From the NCBI RefSeq assembly GCF_003342675.1, contig NZ_CP031148.1, positions 2,232,001 through 2,296,000 of the forward strand: DNA of 64,000 bases, written 5' to 3'. The notes under the pieces were generated by a model. It was not told where the DNA came from. It did no database searches and saw nothing but the letters and a program-made list of their open reading frames with translations. Position 1 is the first letter of the stretch, and each line of letters opens with the position of its first letter. Position numbers and translations under genes: made by a program. This stretch comes from Haloplanus rubicundus (lineage in GTDB: Archaea > Halobacteriota > Halobacteria > Halobacteriales > Haloferacaceae). This document shows, one piece after another, positions 11,027 to 61,995 of this stretch.

Positions 11027-12124
11027 ATGATAGACGAGCGCCATGCGGCGATTTCGCTGAACGAGTTCCCCGATCCCGTCCTCGCCTACGCCGTGGAGGG
11101 TCGCGACGCCCGCGTAACGACGGTGAACGAGGCCTTCGAGCGACGGTTCGACGACGTCACGCCCGACGCGCCAGTCTCGACGGTGTTCGACCGATTCGGC
11201 ACTATCGAGACGTCCGGTGACGAGGATCCACTCACCCACCTCGTTCGGGGTGATCGTGTCGGAATATATCTCGACGGTGAGCGAGGCTCGTTCTTCGGAC
11301 GGGTGATCCCGTCGGACGAGAACGCCGGGTATCTCGTCCTCTCCGATCTGGGGCAGTGCCCCGACGTCGCAGACTCGCCCGCCGTCGACCAGGTCAGTAG
11401 CGTGATCAGCCACGACCTCCGGAATCCGCTCGATGTCGCCAAGGCACATCTCCAGGCCGCACGGGAGACGGGCGATCCGGAACACTTCGAGTCGATATCG
11501 AGCGCCCACGACCGGATGGAACGGATCATCCGCGACGTCCTCACCCTCACGCGGGGGGATGCCGTCGTGGACCCGTCGGAACGGGTCTCGATCGAAACCG
11601 CCGCGACGGATGCGTGGCAGTCGGTCGATACCGAACGAGCCACGCTCGATCTTTCGGACCCGCTTCCGGCGACGACCGCCGACCCCGACCGCGTCCGGCG
11701 GTTGTTCGAGAACCTGTTTCGGAACAGCGTCGAACACGGTTCGACGAGCAGTCGGTCGGAGGCCGACGATAGCGTGGAGCACAGCTCCACGGACGACCGG
11801 CGCTTCCGCGCCGGTAGCACCGTAGAGCGCGGCTTGGAAGGCGAGGATGTCCCCGACAGAGACGGCGAAGTGACGCCCGGAAGCAGCGTGACGATCACCG
11901 TCGGCACGTTGGAAGACGGGTTCTACGTCGCCGACGATGGCCCCGGTATTCCCCCCGAAGAGCGGGAGGTGGCCTTCGAGCCGGGATACTCCACGAGAGA
12001 GGGTGGGACTGGACTCGGCCTCGCAATCGTCGAGCGCATCGTCGCTGCACACGACTGGGAGATGAGCCTCACCACCGCCGAACACGGTGGCGTGCGATTC
12101 GAAATCCGATTCCAACCCCGATGA
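11027..12124 (+). CDS. Soluble sensor histidine kinase with tandem palindromic insert
   Basis: A 365-residue cytoplasmic kinase. Residues about 1-110 look like a divergent PAS-type input domain. The dimerisation/phosphoacceptor site is SVISHDLRNPLDVA with His129. The ATPase domain shows the N-box (LFENLFRNSVEHG, about 225-237), G1 (DDGPGIPPEE, about 303) and G2 (GGTGLGLAIVERI, about 325). Between N-box and G1 there is a roughly 55-residue hydrophilic insert encoded by tandem copies of the hairpin element at 11729-11790 and degenerate followers. The next gene, an HTH_10 activator, starts 46 bases downstream, and a HalX response regulator is convergent at 13728, so the three probably form one signalling locus. 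Confidence 0.9.
   Translation: MIDERHAAISLNEFPDPVLAYAVEGRDARVTTVNEAFERRFDDVTPDAPVSTVFDRFGTIETSGDEDPLTHLVRGDRVGIYLDGERGSFFGRVIPSDENAGYLVLSDLGQCPDVADSPAVDQVSSVISHDLRNPLDVAKAHLQAARETGDPEHFESISSAHDRMERIIRDVLTLTRGDAVVDPSERVSIETAATDAWQSVDTERATLDLSDPLPATTADPDRVRRLFENLFRNSVEHGSTSSRSEADDSVEHSSTDDRRFRAGSTVERGLEGEDVPDRDGEVTPGSSVTITVGTLEDGFYVADDGPGIPPEEREVAFEPGYSTREGGTGLGLAIVERIVAAHDWEMSLTTAEHGGVRFEIRFQPR
11729..11835 (+). repeat. Tandem in-frame double-hairpin element (histidine kinase)
   Basis: Unit 1 is gtcgaacacggttcgac (11729-11745), spacer gagca, then gtcggtcggaggccgac (11751-11767), encoding VEHGSTSSRSEAD. Unit 2 starts with gtggagcacagctccac (11774-11790), followed by a 5-base spacer and a different hairpin (accggcgc, ttcc, gcgccggt). 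A third, degenerate unit begins gtagagcgcggc near 11822. The 39-bp architecture is the same as at 27059-27097 and 61351-61389. Confidence 0.8.
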
Positions 12125-26250: not shown

Positions 26251-26504
26251 GCGAGGGTGACCGCGTGGCTGTCGTCGCCGACGCGCCCGACGACGTCGAC
26301 GAGGAGGAGGGCGTCGTCGTCAACTGGTTCGCGAAGCCGGGGCGGCGCGTCTCCGCCGGTGAAAGCATCTGCGAGGTGCAGGTGGAGAAGGTGAGTATCG
26401 ACGTGCCCGCGCCCGTCGACGGCGAACTCGTCGAAATCGTCCGCGACGAGGACGACGAGTTCACCATCGGCGACACGCTGGCGTGGATCCAGCCGGAGGG
26501 GTGA
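26247..26504 (+). CDS. Stand-alone lipoyl-domain protein (E2 carrier)
   Basis: An 85-residue protein whose ATG overlaps the E1-beta stop by four bases. It is a single biotinyl/lipoyl domain: VNWFAKPGRRVSAGE, then the lipoylation site CEVQVEKVSIDVPAPVDGE with the modified Lys in VEK, and ending DTLAWIQPEG. The usual E2 enzyme carries this domain in the same chain as the acyltransferase; here it is separate. The next gene starts at 26501, overlapping the stop. Confidence 0.85.
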   Translation: MSEGDRVAVVADAPDDVDEEEGVVVNWFAKPGRRVSAGESICEVQVEKVSIDVPAPVDGELVEIVRDEDDEFTIGDTLAWIQPEG

Positions 26505-27229
26505 GCGTGGGGGACCAGCCCGCCCCGCGGACCCTCCGCGAGGAGCGTCGGCCGAGTCCGATGCGGCGGACCATCGCGGACCGGCTGGGGAAGAGCTACC
26601 GCGAGGCCGTCCACGTGACCGTCAGCCGCGAGGTGGACGCCGGGGCGCTGGTCGCGGCCGCCGACGCCGCGGGCGTCTCGCTCGTCGACGTCCTCGTTCG
26701 CGCGCTCTCGGACGCCCTCGACGCCCACCCGGCATTCAACGCCACGTTCGAGGACGGCACCCACCGGATCTACGAGGAGCACAACGTCGGCATCGCCGTC
26801 GCCATCGAGGACGGACTGGTCGCGCCGGTCGTCGCCGACGTGCGGGGGCGCGATCCGAACGACATCGCCGCCGAGCGCGAGCGCCTGTCCGAGGCCGTCC
26901 GATCGGGCGACTACGCGATGGCCGACCTCCGTGGGGGGACGTTCACCGTCTCGAATCTCGGTCCCCTCGGCGTCGACGGGTTCACGCCGATCATCAACCC
27001 GCCGGAGGTTGCCATCCTCGGCGTGAGCCGGGTTCGGAAGCGAGCACGACCGGCGGGCGTGGAACGACGTTCCACGGAGAGTCGGCCGGAGGCCGACGAC
27101 GGCGTGGCGTTCCGCGAGACGCTCCCCCTCGATCTGAGCTTCGATCACCGGGTCGTCGACGGCGCCGACGCCGCCCGCTTCCTCGGGACGCTGGCGGAAC
27201 GGATCGAAGACGCCGAGGCGTCCGTCTAG
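26501..27229 (+). CDS. Stand-alone E2 acyltransferase catalytic domain
   Basis: A 242-residue protein from a GTG at 26501 that overlaps the lipoyl-protein stop (gtga). It has the 2-oxoacid dehydrogenase acyltransferase catalytic fold: SPMRRTIADRLGKSYREAV at the start, FTVSNLGPLGVDGFTPIINP and the active-site LSFDHRVVDGADAARFL (HxxxDG). No lipoyl or peripheral subunit-binding domain is present. An in-frame hairpin element at 27059-27097 inserts VERRSTESRPEAD shortly before the active-site segment. The operon ends here, with no E3 gene. Confidence 0.85.
   Translation: MSVGDQPAPRTLREERRPSPMRRTIADRLGKSYREAVHVTVSREVDAGALVAAADAAGVSLVDVLVRALSDALDAHPAFNATFEDGTHRIYEEHNVGIAVAIEDGLVAPVVADVRGRDPNDIAAERERLSEAVRSGDYAMADLRGGTFTVSNLGPLGVDGFTPIINPPEVAILGVSRVRKRARPAGVERRSTESRPEADDGVAFRETLPLDLSFDHRVVDGADAARFLGTLAERIEDAEASV
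27059..27097 (+). repeat. In-frame double-hairpin element (E2 catalytic protein)
   Basis: gtggaacgacgttccac (17 bp), spacer ggaga, gtcggccggaggccgac (17 bp): 39 bases, 13 codons. It sits in a surface-type linker between ARPAG and DGVAFRETLPL. The same layout is at 11729-11767 and 61351-61389. Confidence 0.8.
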
Positions 27230-42411: not shown

Positions 42412-43527
42412 ATGAGTAACGAGGTCCCCGATATCGCGGAGGAGGCAGATCTCGAAGACCGCCTCGCAGACCTGCTGGAGCAAACCACCGACCCACTCGA
42501 ACCGACCACGCCCGAACACGCGCTCGAACTCTATCTAAACGACAAGATCCGAGGCTGCCAGCAAGCGACAGTCACCTCTCATCGGTCGCGGCTCGGATTC
42601 TTGATTGACTGGTGTGAGGAAAACGGTATCGACAATCTCAACGACCTCACTGCCCGCGATCTCCACGAATTTCGCGTGTGGCGTCGGCAGGATTTGAAGA
42701 CCGTCAGCGAAAAGACCCAGATGGACACACTTCGCGTGTTCATCCGCTGGTGTGAGAGCATCGGTGCAGTGACTCCCAACCTCTATCGCAAGGTCGACTC
42801 ACCGGATCTCGAAGCCGGCGAGAGCGCTCGCGATACTGTGCTCCACGCGGAGCGGGCCCGAGAGATACTGACGTACTTAGAGCAGTACGAGTACGGCACC
42901 GTCGACCACGTCTGCTGGCTCACCCTTGCCGAGACGGGGATGCGACTCGGTGGTGCGCGAGCGCTCGACATCAGAGACTTCCATCCGGACGCTGAGACGC
43001 CCCACTTCGACGTTCGGCACCGACCGGAGGCAGATACTCCAATCAAGAACAAATCCCGGGGAGAGCGGCGAATCGCCGTCTCGGCGGAAGCCTGCAAGAT
43101 TATCGAGGACTATTTGCAGCACCAACGGCCGGACGTGGAAGACGAGTACGGGCGGGAGCCGCTCCTCGCGACGTCACACGGTCGCGTCGCCCGCTCGACG
43201 ATCCGAACGTACATCTACCGGTGGTCACGGCCCTGTGTCCGTGATACTGAGTGTCCACACGACCGTGACCCGGACGAGTGTGAAGCGGCCACCGACCGCG
43301 ACAGAGTCGCACAGTGCCCGTCGAGCGTCACACCCCACCCGATTCGGCGAGGGTACATTACGCAACTCCTCCGTGCCGGCGTTCCAGTCGAGACCGTGAG
43401 CGAGCGGTGTAACGTCTCGCCGGCGATTATCGACCAGCACTACGACGTCCGGTCCGAGGAAGACAAAATGCGCCAGCGCCAGCAAGTTCTCGACGACGTG
43501 CAAGGGGGCGGCACTAGGTATACGTGA
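42412..43527 (+). CDS. Tyrosine recombinase (integrase) A
   Basis: A 371-residue site-specific recombinase. The SAM-like N-terminal core-binding domain (about 35-125) is LNDKIRGCQQATVTSHRSRL and WCEENGIDNLNDLTARDLHE. The catalytic domain has Arg in ETGMRLGGARALD, Lys in IKNKSRGERRIA, His-x-x-Arg in TPHPIRRGYIT and the nucleophile Tyr in IIDQHYDVRSEEDK. Before the HxxR box is a Cys/His-rich loop (ECPHDRDPDECEA with a later QCPSSV) that may bind zinc. It is about half identical in visible motifs to the recombinase at 43592 and points toward it. Confidence 0.9.
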   Translation: MSNEVPDIAEEADLEDRLADLLEQTTDPLEPTTPEHALELYLNDKIRGCQQATVTSHRSRLGFLIDWCEENGIDNLNDLTARDLHEFRVWRRQDLKTVSEKTQMDTLRVFIRWCESIGAVTPNLYRKVDSPDLEAGESARDTVLHAERAREILTYLEQYEYGTVDHVCWLTLAETGMRLGGARALDIRDFHPDAETPHFDVRHRPEADTPIKNKSRGERRIAVSAEACKIIEDYLQHQRPDVEDEYGREPLLATSHGRVARSTIRTYIYRWSRPCVRDTECPHDRDPDECEAATDRDRVAQCPSSVTPHPIRRGYITQLLRAGVPVETVSERCNVSPAIIDQHYDVRSEEDKMRQRQQVLDDVQGGGTRYT

Positions 43528-44602: not shown

Positions 44603-44729
44603 GGTTCGCTCGGTGGCGAACCGCATGACTATCGACCCCGACCACGCGCACCGACTTGAATGGCCAATTTTTCCGGCACACGCCCTGTCTCCCGCCACGC
44701 CCGTCTCGTTCACGTTGTTCACTCGACGG

Positions 44730-44787
44730 GCGTGGCTGAGTCCCCCTCGCTCACTGCGTTCGCTCGCGGGACTCCCGCCACGCCCGC
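44730..44787. repeat. 58-bp direct repeat, copy 1
   Basis: Starts gcgtggctgagtccccctcg and ends with cccgccacgcccgc. Copy 2 at 46377-46434 differs at one base. Each has an internal inverted layout: gggcgtggc/tgagtccc at one end against gggact/gccacgccc at the other, the arms matching the tRNA-Arg(CCT) acceptor end. The pair brackets the VWA gene. Confidence 0.7.
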
Positions 44788-44995
44788 CTTCCGTCCACCG
44801 GCGATCCAACCCTACGTCCTGAATAAAGCCGGATTACGCTCGGATTTCGTTGGCAGGATCGAACTACCAGTTTCTGACCCATGGAGACGCGATATCATAC
44901 CTAACCGTGCCCCTCGCGTGGCGGTTTGTGGTAAGCGTGCCGCATACCCGTTCGCCGAGCCGCGAACAACGAGTGCGCTACACCGTGATCGAACT
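44788..44995. other. Intergenic region upstream of the VWA gene
   Basis: About 208 bases after the direct repeat. Frames are open but without recognisable protein. No clear TATA box is seen at leaderless spacing from the ATG at 44996. Confidence 0.3.
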
Positions 44996-46354: not shown

Positions 46355-46376
46355 CCTCACTCACTTCGTTCGACGC

Positions 46377-46434
46377 GCGTGGCTGAGTCCCCCTCGCTCA
46401 CTGCGTTCGCTCGCGGGACTCCCGTCACGCCCGC
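46377..46434. repeat. 58-bp direct repeat, copy 2
   Basis: Differs from 44730-44787 only by t for c in cccgtcacgcccgc. It lies 23 bases after the tRNA-end copy at 46335-46354 and closes the segment with the VWA gene. The gap from here to the esterase stop at 46528 holds no gene. Confidence 0.7.
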
Positions 46435-46527
46435 TTTCTGGCCGAATGAAGCGAGGTTGAAAACGGTGACCGGCGATTCGACCCACACGAATCCGAGCGC
46501 CAGCGTGAAGCGCCGTCCGCTCCCGAC

Positions 46528-49871: not shown

Positions 49872-50172
49872 TTCTGGCGACACAATAACGCCGAGCGACA
49901 GCGAGGCGTCCGTGTCGCCAGAACGGAGACACGGCGATTTGAGCAGCGAACGAGCGAAGCGAAGTGAGTGAGTTCAAATCGCCGTCGGGACGCTCACTTC
50001 AGTCGTGACCTGACTTCGTCAGGTCACTCCTTCGTTCGGTCCCGACGAGCCCCACGCTCGCTAGCGCTCGCGTGGGACGCCGTCGGGACGCTCACTTCGT
50101 CGCTGGCGCTTCGCGCCGGCTGCCCGAGGGACCGGAGGTCCCTCGCTGCTCGCGTGGGACGCCGTCGGGACG
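49852..50172. repeat. Ladder of tRNA-Arg(CCG) 3'-end copies (att scars)
   Basis: ttcaaatcgccgtcgggacg in the tRNA (49852-49871) recurs intact at 49973-49992; cgccgtcgggacg recurs at 50078-50090 and 50160-50172. An inverted copy of the tRNA end with its flank lies at 49912-49942 (arms cgttctggcgacac 49870-49883 and gtgtcgccagaacg 49912-49925 plus acggcgattt to 49940). The sequence after the last copy resembles that after the tRNA (about 30 of 37 bases), as expected if a segment with att sites at both ends inserted and decayed. No gene is present in 49873-50254. Confidence 0.7.
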
Positions 50173-58840: not shown

Positions 58841-60187
58841 ATGGGTATCCCGCGAAGCGACGAGGCAGGTCCGCGTCTCGTCAGTCGGTCGGTTCGGGCG
58901 TCGGTCCCGTCCCTCCGTGCCGCGCTCGACGCCATGCCCGCTCCCCGCACGTTCTGGACCGCTCCCGACGAGGCGACGGTCGTCGCCGGCGGTGCCGCGG
59001 CGACCCTCAGCGCCGACGGTCGGGATCGATTCGCCGCGATCAAGGAGGGCATCGGCCGGGTCCTGCGCTCGGGCGACGTGCACGCCGGCACCGAGGCCGC
59101 CTGCCCTCGGCTGTTCGGCGGCTTCGCCTTCCACGACGAGGGGACCGACGACGACACCTGGGCCGGCTTCCCCGGAGCGCGGTTCGTCCTGCCGCGGGTG
59201 CAGGTGACCGACACCGACCGCGGAACGTGGCTGACCGTCAACGCCGCCGGCCCGGACGCGGCCCCCGAAGCCGTCGAGGACCGCCTCGACGCGGAGCGCG
59301 ACCGGTTCGAGGCGCTCGACGACCCCGACCCGACGCCGCCGCCGGAAATCGTCTCGCGGACGCGAACGACCCCGCGCGAGGCGTGGTGTGACTCCGTCGA
59401 CGCCGCCGTCTCGCGCATCCACGCCGGCGACCTGCGGAAGGTCGTCCTCGCGCAGGCGCTCGAGGTGACGCTCGACCGCCCGCTCTCGGTGCCCGACGTC
59501 CTCGCTCGTCTCGGCGAGACCTACCCGGACTGCTACCGATTCCTCGTGGAGCCGACGGCCGACGCGTCCGCCGACCGGCCGGCCTTCTTCGGCGCGACGC
59601 CCGAACGGCTGGTCAGCCGACACGGCCGCACGGTCACGACCGACGCGCTCGCGGGCACGACCGGCCGCGGCGACACGCCCGCCGAGGACGATTGGCTCGC
59701 CGAAGAGTTGCTCGGGGACGAGAAGAACCTGCACGAACACGAACTCGTCGCGGAGACCATCCGCGAACAGCTCGCCCCCTTCGCGTCGTCGATTTCCGCG
59801 GGCCAGCGGCGGGTCCGACGGCTGGCGACCGTCCAACATCTCTTCACCCCCATCACCGCGACGCTCGACAGCGACACGCACGTCCTCGACCTGGTGGAGG
59901 CGCTGCATCCGACGCCCGCCGTCGGCGGCCTCCCACCCGAACGCGCGCTCGCCACCATCCGCGAGACGGAGCCGTTCGACCGGGGCTGGTACGCCGCACC
60001 CGTCGGCTGGATCGACGCCGCCGGCAACGGCACCTTCGCCGTCGCCATCCGCTCGGCGCTCGCGCGCGGCGCCGAGACGACGCTCTTTGCCGGCGTTGGC
60101 GTCGTCGCCGACTCAGACCCCGACCGCGAGTGGGACGAGGTACAGCTGAAGTATCGGCCGATCCTCGACGAACTCGAACGAGCATGA
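58841..60187 (+). CDS. menF: Isochorismate synthase
   Basis: A 448-residue chorismate-binding enzyme. Motifs: AGDLRKVVLAQALEVTLDRP, FFGATPERLVSRHGRTVTTD, DALAGTTGRGDTPAEDDWLA, the Mg-binding ELLGDEKNLHEHELVAETIR and LHPTPAVGGLPPERALATIR with FDRGWYAAPVGWIDAAGNGT. It converts chorismate to isochorismate, the first committed step to menaquinone. menD overlaps its stop by four bases. A promoter-like ttaggtaaaagagt lies just upstream (about 58806-58819). Confidence 0.9.
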   Translation: MGIPRSDEAGPRLVSRSVRASVPSLRAALDAMPAPRTFWTAPDEATVVAGGAAATLSADGRDRFAAIKEGIGRVLRSGDVHAGTEAACPRLFGGFAFHDEGTDDDTWAGFPGARFVLPRVQVTDTDRGTWLTVNAAGPDAAPEAVEDRLDAERDRFEALDDPDPTPPPEIVSRTRTTPREAWCDSVDAAVSRIHAGDLRKVVLAQALEVTLDRPLSVPDVLARLGETYPDCYRFLVEPTADASADRPAFFGATPERLVSRHGRTVTTDALAGTTGRGDTPAEDDWLAEELLGDEKNLHEHELVAETIREQLAPFASSISAGQRRVRRLATVQHLFTPITATLDSDTHVLDLVEALHPTPAVGGLPPERALATIRETEPFDRGWYAAPVGWIDAAGNGTFAVAIRSALARGAETTLFAGVGVVADSDPDREWDEVQLKYRPILDELERA

Positions 60188-61995
60188 GTGCGCCGAATCG
60201 CAACGTCCTCTGGGGGCGGGCGATAGCCGACGAACTCGCGCGCAGCGGCGTCGAGAGCGTCGTCGTCTCCCCCGGCAGTCGCTCGACGCCGCTCGTCACC
60301 GCCGTTTCGGAACACGACGACCTGCACGTCTTCTCCGTCCTCGACGAGCGCTCGGCCGCCTACTTCGCGCTCGGCCGTGCCCGCCGTACCGGCGAGGTGA
60401 CCCCCCTGATCTGTACCTCCGGCACCGCGGCCGCGAACTACCACCCCGCGGTGATCGAGGCGGACCGCGGGCGCGTCCCCCTCCTCCTGCTCACCGCCGA
60501 CCGCCCGCCCGAACTCCGCGACAGCGGCGCCAACCAGACCGTCGACCAGGAGAAGTTGTACGGCGACGCCACCCGCTGGTACAAGGACCTGCCCGAACCC
60601 GAAGCCGACGAGCGGAAACTCCGCTCGCTCCGGACGGACGTGGCCCGCGCGCTCGCGGCGGCGACGGGCACCCCGTCCGGTCCGGTCCACCTCAACTGTC
60701 CGTTCCGCAAGCCCCTGGAGCCGACGCCCGTGCCGGGCGACGTGCCCGCGGACCTCGACCCCCTCGCCGCCGCCGGCCGCGACGGCGACCGTCCGTTCGT
60801 GACGACGACGGCCGGCGTGCCACGGCTCGACCGCGCCGACCTCCAGCGACTGGCCGAGGCGCTCACCGTGGACCGCGGGCTGATCGTCGCCGGCCCCGCC
60901 GACCCGCCGGGCGTCGATCCGCAGGCGGTCACCGCCCTCGCTCACGCCACCGGCTTCCCCATCGTCGCCGACCCGCTCTCCGGCCTGCGCTTCGGCGGCC
61001 ACACCCGCGTGACGACCACCGTCGGCGGCTACGACGGCTACCTCGACCCGCGCGTGACCGACGACTGGCCCGCGCCGGAAGCGATCCTTCGGATCGGCGC
61101 CTCACCCACCTCCAAGCGCCTCCGGAAGTACCTCGCGCGGACCGACGCGCGGGAGTTCGTCGTCGACCCCGCCGGCGCGTGGCGGGAGGCGGAGTTCACC
61201 GCGTCGGATCTCGTCGTCGCCGACCCGTCCCGCCTCGCCGCCCGCCTCGCGGAAGTCGTTCGCGGCGCCGGCGACGCGGACTGGCGCGACCGCTGGGCGG
61301 CCGCGGACCGAACCCACCGCGAGGTGGTCGCCGACGCGACCGGCGACGGCGTGGAGCCACGCTCCACGAGCAATCGGCTGCAAGCCGATGACGGCGCGGG
61401 CGGCTACTTCGAAGGGGCGATCCTCGCCGACGTGGCCGACCTCGCGCCCGAACCGTCGACGCTCGTCGTCTCGAACTCGAACCCCGTCCGCGACGCCGAC
61501 CGATTCGTGGCGCCCAGCGACGCCGGCTACACCGTCATCGGCAACCGCGGCGCGTCGGGCATCGACGGCGTCGTCTCCACCGCCCTCGGCGCCGGGAGCG
61601 CGACCACCGACCACCTGACGCTCGTGATCGGTGACCTCGCGTACTACCACGACGGCAACGGCCTGCTCTCGGCGCTCCGCTGTGGCGTCGAGGCGACCAT
61701 CGTCCTGATACAGAACGACGGCGGCGGCATCTTCCATCGCCTCCCCATCGAGTCGTTCGATCCCCCCTTCACCGAGTCGTTCCGGACGCCCCACGGTCTC
61801 GACTTCGAGCCGACGGGTGAGCTCTACGACCTCGACTACACCGCCGTCGACGACCGCGAGTCGTTCCGCGAGGCCTACGCCGACTCGGTCGCGAGCGACG
61901 GGACGGACGTGATCGACGTGCGGACGGACGGCGAGGCGAGCCAGCGCACGCGTGAACGGCTGGTCGAGGAGACGGTCGCCGAACTGACCGAGTGA
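60184..61995 (+). CDS. menD: 2-succinyl-5-enolpyruvyl-6-hydroxy-3-cyclohexene-1-carboxylate synthase
   Basis: A 603-residue thiamine-diphosphate enzyme starting MSAPNRNVLWGRAIADELAR, coupled to menF (ATGA at 60184-60187). N-terminal VVSPGSRSTPLVTAVSEHDD, the pyrimidine domain DERSAAYFALGRARRTGE and TSGTAAANYHPAVIEADRGR, and the TPP motif VIGDLAYYHDGNGLLSAL with INDGG-type QNDGGGIFHRLPIESFDPP. It makes SEPHCHC from isochorismate and 2-oxoglutarate. At 61351-61389 the hairpin element adds VEPRSTSNRLQAD within a loop after the substrate-binding middle domain. Confidence 0.9.
   Translation: MSAPNRNVLWGRAIADELARSGVESVVVSPGSRSTPLVTAVSEHDDLHVFSVLDERSAAYFALGRARRTGEVTPLICTSGTAAANYHPAVIEADRGRVPLLLLTADRPPELRDSGANQTVDQEKLYGDATRWYKDLPEPEADERKLRSLRTDVARALAAATGTPSGPVHLNCPFRKPLEPTPVPGDVPADLDPLAAAGRDGDRPFVTTTAGVPRLDRADLQRLAEALTVDRGLIVAGPADPPGVDPQAVTALAHATGFPIVADPLSGLRFGGHTRVTTTVGGYDGYLDPRVTDDWPAPEAILRIGASPTSKRLRKYLARTDAREFVVDPAGAWREAEFTASDLVVADPSRLAARLAEVVRGAGDADWRDRWAAADRTHREVVADATGDGVEPRSTSNRLQADDGAGGYFEGAILADVADLAPEPSTLVVSNSNPVRDADRFVAPSDAGYTVIGNRGASGIDGVVSTALGAGSATTDHLTLVIGDLAYYHDGNGLLSALRCGVEATIVLIQNDGGGIFHRLPIESFDPPFTESFRTPHGLDFEPTGELYDLDYTAVDDRESFREAYADSVASDGTDVIDVRTDGEASQRTRERLVEETVAELTE
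61351..61389 (+). repeat. In-frame double-hairpin element (MenD)
   Basis: gtggagccacgctccac (61351-61367), spacer gagca, atcggctgcaagccgat (61373-61389). It lies between ATGDG and DGAGGYFEGAIL and could be removed precisely without breaking the frame. Same architecture as at 11729 and 27059. The second hairpin differs in both arms together (a compensated change), showing that pairing, and not only protein sequence, is kept. Confidence 0.8.

Follow-up and report, generated by a model that had tools for sequence, protein, structure and literature searches.

Within a 2-oxoacid dehydrogenase E2 gene of Haloplanus rubicundus lies a short DNA element, composed of two different hairpins, that recurs in frame within many unrelated genes of this and related haloarchaea. 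Each unit consists of 39 bp of double hairpin followed by the 6 bp GACRGC, which makes 45 bp or 15 codons in all. Its presence in many unrelated proteins, together with sister genomes in which its sites are empty, supports the conclusion that the element spreads; very probably it is a palindromic element that spreads at the level of DNA and is tolerated within genes.

The E2 copy was found in a stretch of 64,000 nucleotides (termed here the window), which is the whole of the DNA that was first annotated and to which the positions in Table 1 refer. Copies were also sought in the complete genome of H. rubicundus (3.77 Mb) and in other genomes by means of a covariance model (termed R1) built from 11 copies.

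Table 1. Positions in the window of the E2 gene, of the parts of its insert and of related copies
Feature	Position	Strand	Evidence
Host gene: 2-oxoacid dehydrogenase E2 catalytic domain protein	26504..27229	+	PF00198, E=4.4e-61
Double hairpin, 39 bp (7-bp stem, 3-nt loop, 5-nt spacer, 7-bp stem, 3-nt loop)	27059..27097	+	R1 69.9 bits
Hairpin 1, GTGGAAC GAC GTTCCAC	27059..27075	+	pairing 7/7; helix 100% paired in 56 distinct rows
Hairpin 2, GTCGGCC GGA GGCCGAC	27081..27097	+	pairing 7/7; helix 98.5% paired
Target-side motif: RGC triplet (GGC), hairpins start right after it	27056..27058	+	flank tally, 72 coding copies
6-bp motif GACGGC after hairpin 2; recurs between tandem units	27098..27103	+	empty-site alignments and flank tally
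Second copy, in histidine kinase gene (about 11027-12124), directly 3' of native FRNSVEHG box	11726..11770	+	R1 63.7 bits; HisKA, HATPase_c
Degenerate tandem unit after the second copy, same kinase	11771..11818	+	R1 30.8 bits
Third copy, in MenD-like thiamine-diphosphate enzyme gene (about 59692-61995)	61348..61392	+	R1 65.1 bits; TPP_enzyme domains
Weaker relative of the element, apparently intergenic	50099..50147	-	R1 32.5 bits; no open coding frame

Results

The insert in the E2 protein

The E2 open reading frame spans positions 26483-27229; its true start is uncertain, and the GTG codon at 26504 is used here. The initial annotation had placed a hairpin element at 27059-27097 of this gene, and its coordinates, its bases and the 13 in-frame residues that it encodes (VERRSTESRPEAD) proved to be correct, as did its description as two hairpins, both stems of which pair throughout. 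The expectation that such a segment would not be universal in the E2 family, and that orthologues would be shorter by a multiple of three bases, was likewise confirmed: the closest same-genus orthologue (L079) and one other (L096) are shorter by 13 residues (39 bp) exactly at the insert point, and a third (L080) is shorter there by 12 residues (36 bp).

An AlphaFold2 model of the E2 protein, based on 26 aligned E2 sequences, has a mean pLDDT of 82 and a predicted fold that matches solved E2 cores; in printed alignments, the sequences of three solved E2 structures are gapped at the insert position. Within the model the insert (residues 186-198) lies between strands 178-183 and 201-214, with pLDDT values below 50 at residues 188-196, which form a loop. 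Judged from this prediction, it looks like a flexible loop rather than a structural need, and the element in E2 would be a tolerated passenger rather than a working part. The insert might instead be conceived of as an old loop, already present in the ancestor of the E2 family and since lost in relatives. Loop length does vary within the family, and at the insert point two further E2 proteins (L082 and L105) have longer loops of unrelated sequence; but in a search of 79 relatives, which yielded 30 aligned loci (that of H. rubicundus included), the peptide is absent from all 29 other loci, the same element is found in unrelated genes, and other sites of the element are empty in up to five of five sister genomes. 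An ancestral loop was therefore rejected as extremely improbable.

Copies in this and other genomes

The second and third copies within the window (Table 1) likewise contain the 39-bp double hairpin (at 11729-11767 and 61351-61389, respectively), and a repeat finder grouped the E2 copy with window positions 11727-11777 and 61349-61399. We take the thiamine-diphosphate enzyme that harbors the third copy (about 59692-61995) to be MenD. The window also contains two 79-bp direct repeats (repeat family D16), at 44718-44796 and 46365-46443, which are 91% identical.

Across the genome a degenerate pattern for the element finds seven places, versus none for a reversed control; BLAST with 80 nt finds 12 places; and R1 finds 70 matches at E ≤ 0.1, which fall into 56 clusters, and 55 at E ≤ 1e-3. 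The double-hairpin shape alone is not rare in this GC-rich DNA (loosely defined double hairpins number 8, 6, 4, 18 and 6 in five Markov-random windows); rather, it is the shared sequence family that is significant. All 70 matches lie on contig C2, one of three contigs, the chance of which is 0.0007 if the matches are independent and 0.006 for about 50 independent clusters; contigs C1 and C3 have none of the 70, though C3 carries several TnpB genes.

At E ≤ 1e-5 the model is positive in 50 of 79 genomes (that of H. rubicundus included) and in all 12 genomes of the genus; at E ≤ 1e-6 it is positive in 14 of 148 genomes of the phylum, all of which belong to the order of H. rubicundus. Among 72,556 plasmid records there are five with a match, each haloarchaeal by name; none of the phage records searched did. 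Within a single genome, most copies differ from their nearest copy at 5-10 of 45 bases, a divergence that is unlike a recent transposition burst.

Larger relatives of the element were seen in non-coding DNA. Around positions 43248-43300 (L049) and 2747333-2747385 (L050) of contig C2, a double hairpin with longer stems occurs in intergenic stretches with CACCTCGAAAGCCCC upstream; for L050 the far end, GGGGCTTTCGAGGTG, was seen as well. By their sequences, both resemble elements a few hundred bp long that have terminal inverted repeats and, internally, a CCCCTTTCAGTCCC / GGGACTGAAAGGGG stem. Four loci of genomes G005 and G006 (L314, L316, L317 and L318) share a repeat of at least 737 bp that is 90-99% identical and that has the double hairpin in non-coding sequence, and with which locus L313 has only shorter pieces in common; this repeat is not a tRNA, and L313 and L316 have no Rfam match. 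Genome G024 has, at four intergenic places (L322-L325), arrays in which hairpins alternate; these are about 85-94% identical over 126-295 bp and are followed by the inverted pair CTCGCGCGTGC / GCACGCGCCA. In nine non-coding loci that were scanned, no tRNA was found.

Empty sites and borders of the unit

The site of the MenD-like copy (61348-61392) is empty, that is, exactly 45 bp shorter, in five of five sister genomes. For 17 sites beyond that in E2, the MenD-like one included, the joined flanks (100 + 100 bp) were searched against five same-genus genomes, and 70 of the 96 resulting matches were fetched and aligned, with 26 left out. The sister sequence is exactly one unit shorter in 27 of these 70 rows, which represent nine of the 17 sites: at eight of these the difference is 45 bp, and at site 416742, where the H. 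rubicundus copy is itself 48 bp long, it is 48 bp. For the other eight sites, no sister exactly one unit shorter occurs among the 70 rows from the five genomes. The initial annotation had suggested that the segment moves, rather than being shared through common ancestry of its hosts, and the empty sister sites, along with the many unrelated proteins concerned, bear this out. Its estimate of the unit's size requires revision: the 39-bp double hairpin is real, but the clean unit at other sites is 6 bp longer.

Copies are inherited as well, since at sites 748511, 1996376 and 2339347 the sister genome G005 carries a nearly identical copy. Different versions of the element occupy the same place at the MutS site and at site 2425776, and decayed or partial versions occur at sites such as 192624 and 1031281.

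Border sequences were tallied for 72 coding copies (own-genome copies of lengths other than 45 bp or scoring below 40 bits being excluded, so that 30 of 70 were kept). The triplet preceding hairpin 1 is AGC or GGC in 61 of the 72, with GAC or AAC ahead of it in 51; the triplet following hairpin 2 is GAC in 62, with AGC or GGC next in 40. Insertion has thus occurred after RGC, and mostly after RACRGC, at many sites. The left and right hexamers are identical in 12 of the 72 copies, versus 8.0 after shuffling, and a site-specific duplication was not found among them; the borders therefore reflect a consensus rather than a proven target-site duplication. The element also forms tandem arrays with a period of 45 or 48 bp.

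Stem covariation

Pairing within the two stems was assessed using 57 aligned copies (56 of them distinct), which are mostly coding, high-scoring R1 matches, so that the 99.2% of 784 cells found to be paired should be read in light of a structured model's favoring paired copies. Covariation is 0.405, versus 0.135 ± 0.010 after shuffling, and double-change cells number 108 versus 26. Columns 5-19 display four types of pair (in 35, 16, 4 and 1 rows) and columns 31-37 five types (in 33, 15, 3, 3 and 2 rows), with no unpaired case among the 56 rows for either. In the encoded peptide, residues 2 and 7 of the 15-codon unit change jointly (V-T, E-S, A-A, G-P), and a second set of residues is similarly locked (P-A, T-S, A-P, S-T). 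The stems covary almost without exception, even though each such change replaces two amino acids together, which means that the hairpin is conserved at the level of nucleic acid rather than of peptide.

Reading frame, strand and host proteins

Coding frames were assigned by codon-position GC content, with strict counts requiring a score above 0.25. In H. rubicundus 48 of the 55 copies at E ≤ 1e-3 are in the sense orientation and in phase 0 (a count that includes, at a low score, copy 43248, which is intergenic by its surroundings), as are 42 of the 45 with scores above 0.25. Among the exceptions, copies 13054 and 13099 lie at or past a gene's stop, 2747333 and 2282099 are apparently intergenic, 823255 on inspection falls within a plausible sense phase-0 protein, and 921354 is in a different sense frame; copy 189141 is also among the seven outside of sense phase 0. 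A further 60 copies from twelve other genomes were hand-picked from roughly 150, for the most part in order of score and so as to cover different genomes: sense phase 0 applies to every one of the 48 whose score exceeds 0.25; the remaining 12, which include non-coding families, score 0.25 or less. Three of the five plasmid matches (Natrinema NZ_CP082247.1, Salinigranum marinum NZ_CP100462.1 and halophilic archaeon DL31 CP002989.1) are, based on phases derived by hand from their coordinates, sense and in phase with an annotated CDS.

The twenty host proteins that were scanned belong to more than 15 unrelated Pfam families. Hosts include MutS, MutL, enolase, DapB, the tetrahydrofolate dehydrogenase/cyclohydrolase FolD, polyphosphate kinase, a glucose/sorbosone dehydrogenase, an alpha/beta hydrolase, a short-chain dehydrogenase, a NUDIX protein, an asparaginase, a helicase, a class I Glu/Gln tRNA synthetase, a TRM5 methyltransferase, a HerA-like protein, many histidine kinases and the thiamine-diphosphate enzyme. 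In histidine kinases, units come after the native FRNSVEHG box and frequently form tandems with a spacing of 45 or 48 bp; judging from sequence, the N-box appears to be a hotspot, the native box being similar to hairpin 1. Up to four tandem units are seen past this box, as at C2:2182634-2182819; the kinase arrays mix SVEHGST- and SEGRSPSG-type units, and half-units such as DSRTQSGD are seen elsewhere.

Translation of 90 copies in all six frames yields a net acidic peptide (+2.1) for sense phase 0 only, the other five frames being net basic. Haloarchaeal proteins are acidic, and the bias in frame and strand is therefore likely to reflect a selective filter. Two other causes of the frame bias were considered and rejected. 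Target choice cannot produce it alone, since GACRGC is in sense phase 0 at just 84 of the 325 places where it occurs in the window (or of 278 when genic cases alone are counted), versus the 42 of 45 and 48 of 48 observed for the element. Nor can stop codons be responsible: all frames are open in most copies, with the exception of sense phase 2, which is free of stops in 47 of 90. By our own reading of the loci inspected, intergenic copies number five, versus 48 expected from target and filter (p about 1e-5); this deficit could be due to faster decay, to a model trained on coding copies or to a real preference.

Discussion

Comparison with known systems

The Rickettsia palindromic elements (RPEs) are portrayed, in passages of PMC3733652, PMC10969869 and PMC6649704, as in-frame palindromes within many unrelated protein-coding genes, whose hosts tolerate them; the haloarchaeal element too is an in-frame palindromic repeat in unrelated genes that is missing from orthologues. 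Unlike RPEs, whose length in Rickettsia is given as about 150 bp in a passage of PMC10969869, the haloarchaeal unit is archaeal, is 45 bp long, has two different hairpins in a fixed order, and is near-absolutely fixed in strand and frame. Many palindrome copies, some of them inside genes, are also characteristic of the GTAG- and CGTC-tagged REPs, which the relevant passages of Di Nocera 2013 (PMC3733652) describe as palindromes of 20-40 bp present in many copies, some intragenic. There REPs are described in bacteria and as mostly intergenic (the word 'Archaea' occurs in the reference list only), and CGTC REPs as having stems of 8-9 bp that start with A/T (two A/T pairs), loops of 4-5, a CCA tail and, in a further likeness to the present element, no known dedicated transposase. 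The reverse strand of the haloarchaeal unit starts with GCYGTC, that is, with CGTC or TGTC beside the hairpin; its stems of 7 bp and loops of 3, however, differ from those of CGTC REPs, and it is not mostly extragenic, 48 of 55 copies being sense and in frame.

With the PATEs and IS605-type transposons of haloarchaea, as portrayed in parts of PMC3119063, the unit shares a haloarchaeal host, palindromes near both ends, a lack of terminal inverted repeats, a short targeting oligonucleotide and a lack of target duplication; a terminal-only PATE of 52 bp is described there. The unit differs from both in that no sequence relation to the ends of the Y1/TnpB loci examined (4 Y1 and 20 TnpB) was found and in lying in frame within coding genes. 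PARCEL coding repeats resemble it in their dyad symmetry and in being both dispersed and tandem; the passages available in PMC2996958 describe them as amphipathic domains, mainly of membrane proteins, and report none in archaea. It does not show the terminal inverted repeats of a DNA transposon and the target-site duplication that mark a MITE: two different hairpins take the place of inverted ends, and the border hexamers are alike by consensus but not by site. Double-hairpin elements of fungal mitochondria are likewise very short units that seem to be mobile and that contain two GC-rich hairpins, but are mitochondrial; to our knowledge they are not fixed in a reading frame. Among the open-licence papers searched, no title or abstract describes a haloarchaeal coding palindrome, and the peptide VEHGST matches one paper, on a bacteriocin, whose title and abstract concern another subject.

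Mechanism and alternatives

IS200/IS605-type elements have hairpins that are recognised as single strands, and insert 3' of a short target. On balance the element described here is probably a dispersed, non-autonomous and hairpin-dependent palindromic element of haloarchaea that relies upon recognition of this type and upon a peptide filter. When a copy moves, its hairpins would be recognised in single-stranded form, as for IS200/IS605-type (HUH) elements; GACRGC would serve both as the target and as the right-end cleavage site; insertion would occur 3' of this short target; and copies would survive mainly where the added peptide, being acidic and flexible, lands in a surface loop. (A passage of PMC3119063 describes both single-strand hairpin recognition and insertion 3' of a short target for IS200/IS605-type elements.)

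That a transposase is the vehicle has somewhat less than an even chance. Y1 transposase genes, which were sought in 24 genomes, correlate in number with the copies of the element within the genus (rho 0.66, p 0.018, n = 12) and weakly over all genomes (rho 0.38, p 0.065, n = 24); two genomes that carry copies, G003 (13 copies) and G011 (8 copies), lack the Y1 transposase (PF01797), and of these G003 is a single contig that is 99% complete. Significant R1 matches are lacking around four Y1 loci (best E 0.054) and over 20 of 41 TnpB loci (best E 0.017), these comparisons with Y1 and TnpB yielded no mobilising enzyme, and no copy was caught moving in the genomes compared. Spread might instead proceed without a transposase: short single- or double-stranded copies of the unit would be pasted by microhomology at RACRGC, or be copied through template switching at replication forks and gene conversion, with slippage generating the 45-bp arrays and with hairpin-templated correction keeping the stems perfect. 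Haloarchaea are polyploid. Such a process would fit the occurrence of RACRGC at both borders, the tandem period of 39 + 6, the copies in genomes that lack the Y1 transposase, and perfect pairing alongside diverse sequences; it would also fit the kinase copies, whose position coincides exactly with a native AGCGTGGAACACGG similar to hairpin 1, so that homology could guide insertion, and the kinase paralogues L276-L278, which have near-identical arrays within near-identical flanks. Many non-kinase insertions, however, have just 3-6 bp in common with the target, and within the genus the number of Y1 genes tracks copy number, so that spread of this kind seems rather unlikely.

The near-absolute sense phase-0 placement, the net acidic peptide, the paucity of intergenic copies relative to expectation, and the repeated use of the unit past the N-box of histidine kinases would also be expected of a selected protein module, that is, of a useful peptide (a flexible acidic linker in kinases, for example) that is copied between genes and of which the hairpins are a by-product. 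Yet the covariation of columns 5-19 and 31-37, without an unpaired row, locks residues together in pairs for which protein function offers no explanation; the hosts are unrelated enzymes whose orthologues do without the insert; and in E2 the insert forms a low-confidence loop. A protein module is for these reasons quite improbable. Strict stem covariation, together with the fixed sense orientation, would suit a transcribed hairpin that is kept for mRNA processing, stability or pausing, but here too there are points against: the element's place within genes varies, orthologous genes do without it, and a role in RNA needs no fixing of frame beyond a multiple of three. A comparison with 4227 Rfam families gave no match for six related loci (mostly non-coding relatives of the element, the E2 site not being among them). 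Maintenance at the RNA level is accordingly given very little weight.

Conclusions

Coding palindromic elements have so far been familiar chiefly from Rickettsia and, in bacteria, as REPs that lie within genes. The haloarchaeal family does the same with a unit that is small enough to be viewed as a whole, and it brings to the subject empty sites, a target motif, a diversity of paired stems and a nearly absolute rule of frame. Two questions thereby become testable in culturable haloarchaea, namely, how palindromes spread without a known transposase and how short protein insertions originate. The element could also explain why VEHGST-type repeats occur within the histidine kinases of H. rubicundus. 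Taken furthest, and quite tentatively, the hairpin-dependent element may be an exceptionally small, selfish 45-bp hairpin unit that spreads in frame, that moves as DNA, that targets RGC, and whose length, target and acidic frame are built to enter genes without breaking them; if this is true, then a selfish DNA hairpin would be continually supplying the core proteome with 15-residue linkers.
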